From: a virus
Strand: one strand, 5' to 3'
DNA: 23,394 nt
IMG/VR virus record: IMGVR_UViG_3300036944_000631
Coordinates: 1 to 23,394 of that record
Positions 628-5,160 of this stretch are shown here, one piece after another. Each line of letters opens with the position of its first letter. The stretch's first letter is position 1. The notes beneath the pieces were generated by a model. It searched no databases. It was given only the letters and a program-made list of their open reading frames with translations, and had not been told where the DNA came from. A program made the position numbers and the translations under genes.

Positions 628-651
628 AAATAGAGTATGCATATATAACAT

Positions 652-1275
652 ATGCATTTTGATCCTAGACAGATTAAACATCTAACTGATTCAGTCGATG
701 ATGTTCTAATTAAGACCTTATTGAATACTGCCAAAGAAGCAAAGTCTTCTCAAGCCACAGTGGGAAGTGTGGTTGATGACAGCTATGTTGCTGTTCACAA
801 TACTGACATCTGCACAGCCAACTTTGTAGATTATAACAACTTTGCTGATAATGTTGAACTACTTGTAATGCGCTGCAAGGAGCTTGTAGAGCATCACTAT
901 AGCGTGGAATGTGTGTCACATTCCATTGACTTTCTTCACTATCCAGACGGAACTCACTATTGGCCGCATATAGATGGTCAATACATAGACGGTACATTTG
1001 TTCGCAGAAGTGATATCAATCGTGACATAACTTGCGTAGTGTATCTAAATGATGACTATCAAGGTGGCGAAGTATATTTTCCATTCTTTGACATTGAGAA
1101 GAAGCCTAATACGGGCGACATATTAATGTATCCTGGTAGTTGGCAATATCTTCACGGCGTCAAGAAAGTAGAAGGTGTTCGTTACGCAATAGTAGTTTGG
1201 TTCCATACAAGTCCTGAAATGTATCAGGATGAGGAAATTAAACATCATCACATAATGAGAACACTCACTCATTAA
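652..1275 (+). CDS. 2-oxoglutarate/Fe(II)-dependent oxygenase (prolyl 4-hydroxylase-like)
   Basis: This 207-aa protein carries the double-stranded beta-helix signature of the P4H/2OG-Fe(II) family: HxD iron ligands at His106 and Asp108 (motif PHIDG), the distal His168 (YLHGV) and Arg177 (VRYAIV) for the 2-oxoglutarate carboxylate. The family couples 2-oxoglutarate decarboxylation to hydroxylation of protein, nucleotide or other substrates; the substrate here is unknown. Such genes are common auxiliary genes of marine T4-like phages. It is the only plus-strand gene, wedged between minus-strand tRNA-Asp and tRNA-Tyr. Its stop codon touches the encoded CCA of tRNA-Tyr, which suggests a compact insertion into the tRNA array. 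No convincing ribosome binding site precedes the ATG. Confidence 0.9.
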   Translation: MHFDPRQIKHLTDSVDDVLIKTLLNTAKEAKSSQATVGSVVDDSYVAVHNTDICTANFVDYNNFADNVELLVMRCKELVEHHYSVECVSHSIDFLHYPDGTHYWPHIDGQYIDGTFVRRSDINRDITCVVYLNDDYQGGEVYFPFFDIEKKPNTGDILMYPGSWQYLHGVKKVEGVRYAIVVWFHTSPEMYQDEEIKHHHIMRTLTH

Positions 1276-1546: not shown

Positions 1547-1629
1547 TGGTGCGGGTAGAGGGACTCGAACCCCCACGGTTGCCCGTCTGGACCTAAACCA
1601 GGTGCGTCTACCAATTTCGCCATACCCGC
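1547..1629 (-). tRNA. tRNA-Leu (anticodon TAG)
   Basis: Acceptor GCGGGTA/TACCCGC, anticodon stem CCTGG/CCAGA with loop TTTAGGT (TAG), a class II variable arm, T arm with loop TTCGAGT, A73 and encoded CCA. This is the ordinary class II Leu tRNA of the array. Confidence 0.95.
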
Positions 1630-1639
1630 AAACTTGAGC

Positions 1640-1713
1640 GACCACCTAAGTGTGCCTTGAACGAATACGTCCGGACGCTTCGTTCTTCCTTTTCAGGTTC
1701 AGCATAGGTGGTC
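1640..1713 (-). ncRNA. Structured RNA with nested stems and a palindromic loop
   Basis: The 74-nt stretch between tRNA-Leu and tRNA-Ala is closed by a perfect 9-bp inverted repeat (GACCACCTA at 1640-1648, TAGGTGGTC at 1705-1713). Inside are a 7-bp stem (GAACGAA 1659-1665 with TTCGTTC 1679-1685) enclosing the palindrome CGTCCGGACG (1668-1677) and, read on the minus strand, a small hairpin CCT-GAAA-AGG. The GAAA tetraloop on the minus strand agrees with co-transcription with the tRNAs. The self-complementary loop could allow RNA kissing dimers. It has no CCA end or T loop, so it is not a tRNA. Confidence 0.6.
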
Positions 1714-1718
1714 TAACT

Positions 1719-1794
1719 TGGTGGAGAATAACGGGATCGAACCGTTGACATCCAGCTTGCAAAGCTGGCGCTCTACCATCTGAGCTAATTCCCC
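1719..1794 (-). tRNA. tRNA-Ala (anticodon TGC)
   Basis: Acceptor GGGGAAT/ATTCTCC contains the G3-U70 wobble that defines alanine identity. Anticodon stem CCAGC/GCTGG with loop TTTGCAA (TGC), A73, encoded CCA. Confidence 0.96.
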
Positions 1795-1797
1795 AAA

Positions 1798-1915
1798 ACT
1801 TATTAGAAGAACACACAAGATATAGAATAGTGTTGGCGCACTACCGTTCGCTACTCGCCAAAGTAACCGAACCGCCGATTGGGCTAAAACCGTCTAATGT
1901 GTTCATCTAATAAGT
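1798..1915 (-). ncRNA. Repeated structured RNA, copy 1
   Basis: About 118 nt closed by ACTTATTAGA/TCTAATAAGT and, after one mismatch, GAACACA/TGTGTTC. On the minus strand a hairpin AGTG-CGCCAA-CACT follows. Its loop CGCCAA is complementary to an upstream TTGGCG, so a pseudoknot is possible. A homologous copy lies at 3263-3391. Between the copies, C-G in the second stem becomes U-G, and A-U in the hairpin becomes G-C. Both keep pairing only if the RNA is the minus strand. No open reading frame or tRNA feature is present. Confidence 0.75.
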
Positions 1916-1916
1916 C

Positions 1917-2760
1917 TTTGTGAAGCATGAGATTACTGCTTCTAATTGAGTGCCTTTGGTCATTACCGAGTCCCTTGCGAGGATCGTTCTACCGTTATCC
2001 ACTAAAGTCCTTTCGGATTCTCTAGTATCACTCAGTGCTGCCTTTTTTGAGGTCTGGCGTTTGACCTATCATGCTACGCTATTCGTCCCTCAATCTTCCG
2101 TTTGCCTTGCGAGCAATTCGGTTCCGCTAAGAACCTACGTCTTCAATCCGAACAATCACATCATCCTTGCGGGAATCCGTGAACCCAATTCACTTCCGTG
2201 TCAGGTATTAAGCACCTTTCACATAGCACTGGAGCAGACTTTCGCTTTTGTTATACAAACCAGGAATTGAACCTAGATCGACAGTTTAAGAGACTGTTGT
2301 CTTACCATTAGACAATTTGCGAACCTACCAAGAAGTGCTGCTCCAGCAGATCCATATCTTGTTAGATACGGAATACTACACTCCTCATGTCTTTTACCTT
2401 GCGGGCTACTCAACGGCACTTCTAGTTTCCCCTCATCGGTTCTACTATTGTGCTACCGCTTTGCCTTTCCTTGCTAGGTCAGACTTAGCGATTACCCATT
2501 AGTTTTCAGCATTCGCGAGTTTGGTTCGATACAGCTAGACCACCACAGTCTATTAGAACTCACCGACTGGCTCTGTTCGTATCCTTTCGGACTTATATCA
2601 CTCACTTACTGCCTACCGCCATTCTACTGACGGGAGATGCTTTCGGTAATGCCGAGACATCTCTAACTTGGGCTTGCATAGATGAACCATTACTGGCGCA
2701 GTTACGTAGGAGTCCCTGCTTTGGCCGCATTACTGCGGTTATTCTAACGAGGCTATGCCC
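1917..2760 (-). ncRNA. Giant structured RNA, GOLLD/ROOL-like candidate
   Basis: About 845 nt without a believable gene sits inside the tRNA array. On the minus strand it is full of stable hairpins with GNRA tetraloops: CCGCA-GTAA-TGCGG (2725-2738), TCC-GAAA-GGA twice (2582-2591, 2008-2017), and four GCAA loops closed by C-G (loops at 2399-2402, 2167-2170, 2107-2110, 1975-1978). Longer-range helices include GAGATG/CATCTC (2634-2663) and CTGGAGCAG/CTGCTCCAG (2229-2237 with 2338-2346). The tetraloops are GNRA only on the minus strand, which fixes the orientation. A tRNA-Lys-like domain lies inside. Size, tRNA context and phage origin match the GOLLD and ROOL classes of large phage RNAs; which class, if either, needs a covariance-model search. 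Confidence 0.75.
2252..2322 (-). tRNA. tRNA-Lys-like domain (CTT) embedded in the giant RNA
   Basis: Canonical inner parts are present: D arm GTCT-AATGGTA-AGAC, anticodon stem ACAGT/ACTGT with loop CTCTTAA (CTT), T arm CTAGG-TTCAATT-CCTGG. The acceptor stem is poor (CAAA/TTTG plus weak pairs) and the 3' end reads AACA, not CCA. The flanks pair around it (TTCGC/GCGAA, then CTGGAGCAG/CTGCTCCAG), so it appears to be built into a longer helix. A normal tRNA-Lys(CTT) exists at 5324-5399. It is probably a structural module or pseudo-tRNA; boundaries are approximate. Confidence 0.55.
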
Positions 2761-2941
2761 CCAATTCTTATTCTCTACTTATACACCACTTTATGGTGTT
2801 TGTAAATACTTTTTTGAAAAATATTTACGAGAAACTAGGCCCGGGATATTTTACAAGCATACGGGCGGCGCTTGCCGTTTTGTTTACAACGTATAATCTG
2901 TTAGGGTATATACGTTGGTTCAGCAGACGGTACTGCTTATC
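2761..2941. other. Hairpin-rich spacer between the giant RNA and tRNA-fMet
   Basis: There is no gene here. Inverted repeats visible are ACACCA/TGGTGT (2783-2799), GTAAATA/TATTTAC around a T/A-rich centre (2802-2828), CAACGTATA/TATACGTTG (2887-2917) and AGCAG/CTGCT (2922-2937), the last just 3' of tRNA-fMet. They may be processing sites, terminators or part of the leader of the giant RNA. None has a clear U-tract on the minus strand. Confidence 0.4.
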
Positions 2942-3016
2942 TGGTTGCAGGAGTCGGACTTGAACCGACGACCTTCTGGTTATGAGCCAGACGAGCTACC
3001 ACTGCTCCACCCTGCG
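2942..3016 (-). tRNA. Initiator tRNA-fMet (anticodon CAT)
   Basis: Anticodon loop CTCATAA (CAT). The acceptor CGCAGGG/TCCTGCA has the unpaired C1 and A72 and the D stem has A11-U24, both hallmarks of bacterial initiator tRNA. The anticodon stem has two rather than three consecutive G-C pairs next to the loop. A73 and CCA are encoded. Confidence 0.93.
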
Positions 3017-3022
3017 TCAAAC

Positions 3023-3097
3023 TGGCTCCCTAAGATGGATTCGAACCACCGACCAATTGATTAACAGTCAACTGCGCTACCGCTGCGCCATTAGGGA
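3023..3097 (-). tRNA. tRNA-Asn (anticodon GTT)
   Basis: Acceptor TCCCTAA/TTAGGGA, anticodon loop CTGTTAA (GTT) on a TTGA/TCAA stem, T loop TTCGAAT, G73 and encoded CCA. Confidence 0.94.
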
Positions 3098-3099
3098 AT

Positions 3100-3181
3100 A
3101 TAAGCACCTCACGTCTTGGTGCTTACGTCAAACATTCTCGACAGACTCCATACACCATACGGTATGCGAGTAGTTTGACTA
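3100..3181 (-). ncRNA. Hairpin-rich element between tRNA-Asn and tRNA-Thr
   Basis: Two nested structures are visible. GTCAAAC (3127-3133) pairs with GTTTGAC (3173-3179), enclosing CTCG/CGAG and CATAC/GTATG pairings. A 7-bp hairpin, AAGCACC/GGTGCTT (3102-3124), lies next to it. There is no CCA end or T loop and no reading frame. It may be a small stable RNA or a processing spacer. Confidence 0.4.
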
Positions 3182-3186
3182 TAAAA

Positions 3187-3262
<76 letters not shown>

Positions 3263-3391
3263 AAGACTTATTAGAAGAACACACAAGATATAAAAAGGTG
3301 TTGGCGCACCAATCGTTCGCTATCCGCCAAGATAACCGATCCGCCACCTCAATAGGCTAAGATCGTCTAATGTATTCATCTAATAAGTCTT
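3263..3391 (-). ncRNA. Repeated structured RNA, copy 2
   Basis: This is the second copy of the 1798-1915 element. A perfect 13-bp terminal repeat (AAGACTTATTAGA at 3263-3275 and its complement at 3379-3391) closes it. Conserved with copy 1 are the minus-strand blocks TTAGACG, TTGGCG, GTGCGCCAACAC and TATATCTTG. The hairpin here is GGTG-CGCCAA-CACC against AGTG-CGCCAA-CACT in copy 1, a compensatory change, and the loop again matches upstream TTGGCG. It lies just downstream of a sigma70-type promoter and a UUCG hairpin, so it may lead a transcript. Confidence 0.75.
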
Positions 3392-3418
3392 GTGTGGGGA
3401 GCCGAAGCTCCCCGACAC
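3392..3418 (-). other. Strong UUCG-capped hairpin
   Basis: GGGGAGC (3396-3402) pairs with GCTCCCC (3407-3413), extended by GTGT/ACAC. On the minus strand the loop is C(TTCG)G, an exceptionally stable tetraloop common in phage RNAs. No U-tract follows on the minus strand; on the plus strand TTTTTT begins a few bases later. It could be an RNA-stabilising 5' hairpin for the element at 3263-3391, or a plus-strand terminator. Confidence 0.6.
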
Positions 3419-3454
3419 AAACTTTTTTCTAACGATGTCAAAGAACAGAACTAA

Positions 3455-3483
3455 TATATATACTGTTTTACCGAAAATGTCAA
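3455..3483 (-). promoter_or_regulatory. Sigma70-type promoter of the inner tRNA array (copy 1)
   Basis: TTGACA (3478-3483), a 17-bp spacer and TATATA (3455-3460) on the minus strand, with start expected near 3448. It would transcribe the UUCG hairpin, repeated RNA copy 2, tRNA-Thr and onward. The sequence from -35 to about 20 bp past the start is similar to the promoter at 6754-6782. Confidence 0.7.
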
Positions 3484-3512
3484 GAACTTTTTTAATTATT
3501 TTCGAAAAACTT

Positions 3513-3588
3513 TGGGGTGAATGAAGGGGATCGAACCCTCGACATGCGGCACCACAAGCCACCGCTCTACCACTGAGCTACACTCACC
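3513..3588 (-). tRNA. tRNA-His (anticodon GTG)
   Basis: Anticodon stem GTGGC/GCCGC with loop TTGTGGT (GTG), the extra 5' G(-1) opposite C73 that marks tRNA-His, acceptor GTGAGTG/CATTCAC and encoded CCA. Confidence 0.95.
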
Positions 3589-3592
3589 ATAA

Positions 3593-3744
3593 TACCGATG
3601 AAGGTTCAAACGATGTATGCATCCATCTCCCTACTCGACGTATTCTCCCACTCGGTAAAACATGGGCGCTTACTTTTGGCGGAGTTGCCAATCGCGCAAA
3701 ACAGAATACCAACTGCGATCGACCATTACCGTATTCTCGACTCC
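3593..3744 (-). ncRNA. Two adjacent folded elements, one ending in CCA
   Basis: There is no gene between tRNA-His and tRNA-Ser, but two closed folds. Element 3677-3744: GGAGT/ACTCC acceptor-like ends with G and CCA encoded, containing a perfect AGAATAC/GTATTCT stem, without D, T or anticodon arms I can recognise. Element 3593-3657: TACCGA/TCGGTA ends and an inner GATG/CATC hairpin. They may be decayed tRNAs or small stable RNAs. Confidence 0.35.
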
Positions 3745-3751
3745 ATAAACT

Positions 3752-3838
3752 TGGCGGAAGGTGTGGGAGTCGAACCCACTCAACCATTTCTGGTTGACGC
3801 ATTAGCAGTGCGTTGCATTACCGTCCTGCCCACCTTCC
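3752..3838 (-). tRNA. tRNA-Ser (anticodon GCT)
   Basis: Acceptor GGAAGGT/ACCTTCC, anticodon stem CGCA/TGCG with loop CTGCTAA (GCT), class II variable arm (CAACCAGAAATGGTTG), T loop TTCGACT, G73 and encoded CCA. Confidence 0.95.
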
Positions 3839-5087: not shown

Positions 5088-5159
5088 TGGTACCAGCAGG
5101 TGGTAACGCTCCACCCGAACCAACCTTATGAGAGTCGGTCGAACACTTGTTCTACTGGT
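5088..5159 (-). tRNA. Minimal non-canonical tRNA with CAT anticodon
   Basis: The 72 nt exactly fill the gap between tRNA-Cys and tRNA-Ile and fold as a cloverleaf. Acceptor ACCAGTA/TGCTGGT (7 bp, one wobble), A73 and CCA encoded, anticodon stem CGACT/GGTTG with a perfect Met-type loop CTCATAA, and a 5-bp T-position arm GGTGG/CCACC with a 7-nt loop. The T loop is AGCGTTA instead of TTCRANY, and the D-position hairpin GAAC-AAGT-GTTC has a 4-nt loop without GG. Both halves of the D-loop/T-loop contact are therefore missing together. It is either an unusual third CAT tRNA or a tRNA-like RNA with another job. Confidence 0.6.
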
Positions 5160-5160
5160 G

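Follow-up and report, generated by a model that had tools for sequence, protein, structure and literature searches.

A tRNA-like domain with a hypervariable anticodon loop in the linker of phage GOLLD RNAs, a possible decoy for anticodon nucleases

Which RNA fills a long stretch of a phage tRNA array, and what might it do there? The stretch lies in an IMG/VR virus record of 23,394 bases, analysed whole and referred to here as the window, which carries genes of a large tailed phage, including those for ribonucleotide reductase, a T4-type RNase H, a 2OG oxygenase and S-adenosylmethionine decarboxylase. A preliminary description had placed a giant structured RNA on the minus strand at 1917–2760, and likened it to the RNAs GOLLD and ROOL by its size, phage context and tRNA neighbours. 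The phage and tRNA-array setting fits GOLLD. ARAGORN made 24 tRNA calls in the window, all on the minus strand. A gene for a 2OG-Fe(II) oxygenase, encoded on the opposite, plus strand (652–1275), sits within this array. We know of no established function for GOLLD, which is among the largest and most ornate RNAs of bacteria and phages.

The Rfam GOLLD model RF02032 matched the window at 194.1 bits, above its gathering cut-off of 150 and over its full length (model positions 1–416 of 416), whereas the Rfam ROOL model gave zero matches up to E = 5 across window positions 1600–3800. ROOL is also a large, cage-forming phage RNA found near tRNA islands, but its sequence and fold are unrelated, and we rejected a ROOL identity because of the missing match. 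RF02032 spans only the 3′ half of the RNA; by comparison with relatives, the 5′ half reaches position 2762 (GGGGGCAUAGCCUC). The phage RNA encoded on the minus strand at window 2762–1924, about 840 nt long, is a complete GOLLD. The giant structured RNA is therefore present at almost exactly the coordinates first given, as judged by the model match, folding and covariation, and of the two names proposed for it GOLLD holds and ROOL falls away. Its two domains, and the helix that closes the linker between them, are as follows:

1924–2386, minus strand: GOLLD 3′ domain including the linker, with a full-length RF02032 match and covariation
2387–2762, minus strand: GOLLD 5′ domain, about 375 nt, beyond the Rfam model, kept in relatives (15-sequence alignment)
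2338–2344, minus strand: GGAGCAG, 5′ strand of the linker-closing helix, pairs with 2231–2237
2231–2237, minus strand: CUGCUCC, 3′ strand of the linker-closing helix, pairs with 2338–2344

We gathered GOLLD relatives from IMG/VR and from phages in GenBank, most of the loci being metagenomic fragments, and a covariance model built from the 3′ core recognized about 125 further GOLLDs among 142 candidate loci. Three contigs from other metagenomes (L017, L019 and L020) are 100% identical to the window across 2.8 to 10.7 kb. A pattern scan of bacterial genomes returned 35 hits and no convincing GOLLD, so that hosts and prophages lie outside the sample; the 3′-core model found only three weak, shortened matches (E up to 0.01) on 35 bacterial contigs. 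Plasmids gave no match, and a looser DNA scan added 24 loci with no GOLLD at the cut-off (20 loci) or to E = 0.01 (4 loci).

The entire GOLLD stretch folded better than shuffled sequence (z −3.9, from 20 shuffles only). Among 13 aligned 3′ cores, 87% of cells were paired and 37 of the 47 pairs had changed on both sides, with a covariation score of 0.733 versus 0.274 for shuffled and at most 0.133 for slid alignments. The 15-sequence alignment of the 5′ domain supports 104 predicted pairs, with compensatory changes in 69; a structured, less conserved 5′ domain of about 400 nt, as in GOLLD, is thus found here, assigned from covariation among the window's relatives. Covariation in an alignment of relatives, the test suggested by the preliminary description, is strong in both halves, and we conclude that the GOLLD structure is under selection. 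In the linker-closing helix, 87.5% of positions pair across 49 distinct sequence pairs, compared with 32–46% in neighbouring registers. On this comparative evidence, the covarying helix 2338–2344/2231–2237 pins both ends of the linker together. An internal duplication hinted at between 2008–2043 and 2582–2613 proved to be a chance likeness. We rejected it as the 5′ copy of the GAAA hairpin (AGUCCGAAAGGAU) is kept in relatives and the second, 3′ copy is free to change in both loop and stem (GACCAGCGAUGGC in L015, GAGCGGAAGCC in L002).

A published structure suggests how this RNA may be arranged. The cryo-EM structure of GOLLD env-38 (Kretsch et al. 2025, PMC12286853) shows a closed 14-mer cage that encloses the linker. 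The window RNA resembles env-38 in its full-length 3′ domain match, separate 5′ domain, variable linker and phage tRNA-array setting, and differs from it in that the env-38 linker measures 42 nt and holds no tRNA-like domain. By analogy with this structure, we infer that the window RNA would assemble into a closed multimeric cage with its linkers and tRNA-like domains inside.

The preliminary description had called the stretch free of genes over about 845 nt. This does not stand, as ARAGORN calls a gene inside it, in the linker:

2253–2322, minus strand (ARAGORN 2250–2323): tRNA-like domain, tRNA-Lys(CTT) by ARAGORN, with 5 of 7 acceptor pairs and ending ACA, without CCA
2286–2292, minus strand: its anticodon loop CUCUUAA (anticodon CUU at 2288–2290), hypervariable among relatives

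Of the features of a functional tRNA, the linker domain has the elbow and all three arms (D, anticodon and T), and lacks a seven-pair acceptor stem and an encoded CCA. The 20 other parsed tRNAs in the window all end in CCA and nearly all form 6–7 acceptor pairs; tRNA-Trp also scored 5, probably through a misparse. One parser read both groups that we compared: 105 distinct linker domains and, from the same loci, 1,039 distinct free tRNAs. Its score minimum was 25.5 for free tRNAs, a level that still admits 4–5 acceptor pairs if the other stems are intact, and 21 for linker domains. CCA was encoded by 4 of 105 linker domains versus 920 of 1,039 free tRNAs (P = 1e-76), in a search whose gap length left room for a full acceptor stem and CCA, and a complete 7/7 acceptor stem was present in 3 of 105 versus 908 of 1,039. 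Of the acceptor pairs, the outer three are the weak ones: in linker domains, pairing is seen in 54, 30 and 65% for pairs 1, 2 and 3, and in at least 90% for pairs 4–7. The remaining stems are intact in 97% (D), 95% (anticodon) and 95% (T) of linker domains; the T-arm value is partly built in, since the T-loop and some of the T stem were specified by the search pattern. When 39 domains were aligned, about 95–100% of cells were paired in the D stem, the anticodon stem and acceptor pairs 4–7, under heavy covariation, and acceptor pair 2 was unpaired in 31 of 39. Elbow contacts are kept (U8–A14 in 100 of 104, the D-loop GG in 103 of 104), and the 15–48 pair is retained as A–U in 54 domains, G–C in 19 and U–A in 14. 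Because body stems and elbow are kept and the acceptor end is lost, we conclude that selection acts on the L-shaped body and not on the acceptor end.

The domain is thus a tRNA look-alike that probably cannot carry an amino acid, and by this reasoning it would not be excised, charged or used in translation; CCA could be added after transcription. That it is instead a working tRNA, excised from the linker or delivered for translation, is very unlikely. Both ARAGORN and Rfam call the domain tRNA-Lys, and tRNAs joined covalently to the RNA have been suggested as cargo of the cage (PMC12286853), but CCA is missing where nearly nine-tenths of the free tRNAs of the same loci encode it, the outer acceptor pairs are broken, and loop sizes and anticodons are odd. 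Some GOLLD lineages have no tRNA-like domain (the L008 group, and L014 and L018 with remnants), and the domain is therefore not essential to the cage. The remnants in the L014 and L018 linkers (GGUUCAAAGC and its flanks) suggest secondary loss.

The anticodon loop changes far faster than the body that carries it. Among 23 pairs of linker domains with no more than two body differences, loops differ in 87% and by three or more changes in 74%; for 80 equally close pairs of free tRNAs the values are 8.7% and 0%. Across 7.5 kb the window matches L010 at 98.4% identity, but their loops are CUCUUAA and AUUGAAG; 5 of 7 loop positions differ, compared with 1.4% in the surrounding aligned 1-kb block, where no second 7-column window has changed as much. 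Between the Caulobacter phages CcrMagneto (loop CUCUUAA) and phiCbK (loop CGUCCUA), 7 of 840 GOLLD positions differ, and 5 of the 7 differences fall in the loop (P ~1e-10), although flanking intergenic DNA has also diverged. Three of the four GOLLD differences between L109 and L092 lie in the loop, three loop types are seen among ten Caulobacter phages, and two Erythrobacter phages have the loops CGCUUAA and a 9-nt CUGUUCAAA.

Some of these loops are ill-suited to decoding. Loops of 8–9 nt occur in 14 of the 105 domains and stop-codon anticodons in 5, and 10 domains place Leu or Ser anticodons on bodies with a short variable arm, which are unsuitable for them. The 7-nt loops nevertheless keep U33 (93%) and a purine at position 37 (92%), which speaks against a simple release from constraint: it is the triplet that varies, inside the frame of an anticodon loop. 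These observations bear on the possibility that the domain is a tRNA gene, inserted into the linker in the past and now in decay, whose loop is under no constraint. The loss of the outer acceptor pairs and CCA would agree with decay, as would the pseudo tRNA predicted in a mycobacterial GOLLD, for which expression was not detected (PMC6582537). This published case, which we compare by description, is like ours in that a degenerate tRNA lies in a GOLLD gene that is expressed and yields no separate tRNA product, and differs in being reported as a single pseudogene. Decay is improbable here, because across 55 clusters (85% core identity, uneven in size) the other stems, the elbow, U33 and purine 37 persist with covariation, and because in closely related pairs the loop evolves faster than the sequence around it.

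Where two GOLLDs are close, they differ in the loop and at few or no other positions, so any partner of the loop is probably outside GOLLD. One candidate is another RNA: the loop might base-pair in trans, with codons on the ribosome or by kissing a host or phage RNA, and track its target. U33 and purine 37 preserve a codon-reading shape, GOLLD is reported to bind ribosomes in pull-downs (PMC12286853), and a partner outside GOLLD would suit such pairing as well. We nonetheless consider it unlikely, since loops of 8–9 nt and stop-codon anticodons are poor codon readers, the acceptor end and CCA are missing, and the partner RNA is hypothetical.

Among the loops, the form CUNNUAA accounts for 48 of 104 linker domains versus 231 of 1,023 free tRNAs (2.9-fold odds), and the loops CUUUUAA, CUGUUAA and CUUGUAA are present, corresponding to the anticodons of Lys(UUU), Asn(GUU) and Thr(UGU). 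These are the tRNAs cut by AriB of the PARIS system (PMC12409363), and we take the enrichment of CUNNUAA together with the AriB-target anticodons as a fit with anticodon nucleases. Taken most simply, the cage would display a mimic of anticodon arms to some factor that reads anticodons and varies from host to host. Our tentative preference is that the domain is a non-decoding anticodon mimic in an RNA cage, most likely serving as a decoy for host anticodon nucleases, which are the presumed target. The GOLLD cage would hold the tRNA-like domain and present its anticodon loop as bait; host anticodon nucleases or related tRNA-targeting toxins would bind or cut the decoy, sparing the tRNAs needed in infection; and the loop would evolve fast because nucleases differ between hosts. 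It is possible, if more doubtful, that in many phages the GOLLD cage acts as such an anti-defence device, each cage holding copies of a non-decoding tRNA mimic with an anticodon loop under diversifying selection, and thereby traps or misdirects host anticodon nucleases.

Several observations weigh against a decoy. Loops absent from the compared free phage tRNAs make up 53 of 104 linker loops, which are thus no obvious copies of nuclease targets. The solved env-38 GOLLD (PMC12286853) has no tRNA-like domain, and its closed cage leaves nuclease access unexplained. Nor does the cage need the domain, which is missing in the L008 group and reduced to remnants in L014 and L018. The same many absent loops would suit a further reading, in which the elbow is the working part, binding a host tRNA-binding factor or shaping the cage interior, and the loop merely escapes anticodon nucleases. 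The elbow contacts are the best-conserved part of the domain, and phage tRNAs have been proposed to escape anticodon nucleases through loop mutations (PMC10264068). Nearly half of the loops, however, are CUNNUAA, several with anticodons of known nuclease targets, which is the opposite of escape, and we regard this reading as unlikely.

The decoy proposal has precedents in free phage tRNAs, whose loop changes have likewise been explained by conflict with nucleases of this kind (van den Berg et al. 2023, PMC10264068; T5 and PARIS, PMC12409363). Those tRNAs are free and serve translation, whereas the linker domain is embedded, lacks CCA and carries loops beyond decoding forms. Membership of the window RNA in the known GOLLD family is clear, and the presence of tRNAs in GOLLD linkers is already known: the env-38 authors note that phage tRNAs are sometimes found there and treat the insert as such, and the available portion of their paper describes neither a lost acceptor end nor a hypervariable loop (PMC12286853). 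We did not find a hypervariable, non-decoding linker domain described in the searchable GOLLD literature, and loop variability may have been noticed earlier. If GOLLD does cage a fast-evolving anticodon mimic, this would offer a direct, testable idea of the purpose of the cage and would tie RNA nanocages to the arms race between phages and bacteria around tRNAs; as an anti-defence cage, it would give a natural RNA nanocage a function and add a new type of phage counter-defence. There is also a practical consequence. Gene finders call linker domains ordinary tRNAs (Lys, Gly, Arg, Ser), and GenBank records of several Caulobacter phages annotate them so, by which studies of phage tRNA content would be distorted.

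Two elements adjoin GOLLD in the window:

2778–2806, minus strand: candidate GOLLD promoter, read from the sequence, with TTTACA (2801–2806), a 17-nt palindromic spacer and TATAAG (2778–2783)
1797–1921, minus strand: separate structured element of 125 nt directly 3′ of GOLLD (z −5.7), with no Rfam match

The candidate promoter is kept in L010, L059 and L015, where the spacer varies and stays palindromic or nearly so, and this conservation is suggestive of a GOLLD promoter at 2778–2806. It was absent from the output of a generic promoter scan, and TATAARTA occurs in the window no less often than expected by chance. The 125-nt type of element also lies 3′ of GOLLD in L015, L059, L081, L069 and L052. 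A paralogous structured element at 3264–3393 on the minus strand (z −6.3) belongs to no Rfam family, and a search of GenBank phages, at its given sensitivity, found no relative. Both elements, of 125–130 nt, are closed by a long stem (GACUUAUUAGA..UCUAAUAAGUC) around a branched interior that varies, and the roughly 77% identity of 1737–1922 and 3205–3396 suggests duplication of a tRNA together with its element. Gene-free stretches between tRNAs at 1632–1716, 3102–3185, 3590–3745 and 5090–5160 also look self-complementary.

Other loci in the collection showed further features. Permuted (two-piece) tmRNA genes adjoin GOLLD in L002 (2275–2563), L003 (2121–2409) and L004, L006 and L007 (near 640–1028, minus strand); these belong to Phaeobacter, DSS3_MAL1 and Caulobacter phages and are unannotated in some records. 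L101 has a second, shortened GOLLD-like core (1827–1947, 79 bits) upstream of a complete GOLLD, with no tRNA-like domain preceding it. Unannotated GOLLDs are present in cultured phages, namely at L005 1528–1996 in the jumbo Sinorhizobium phage Phosso (469 kb) and at L255 and L256 in Erythrobacter phages.
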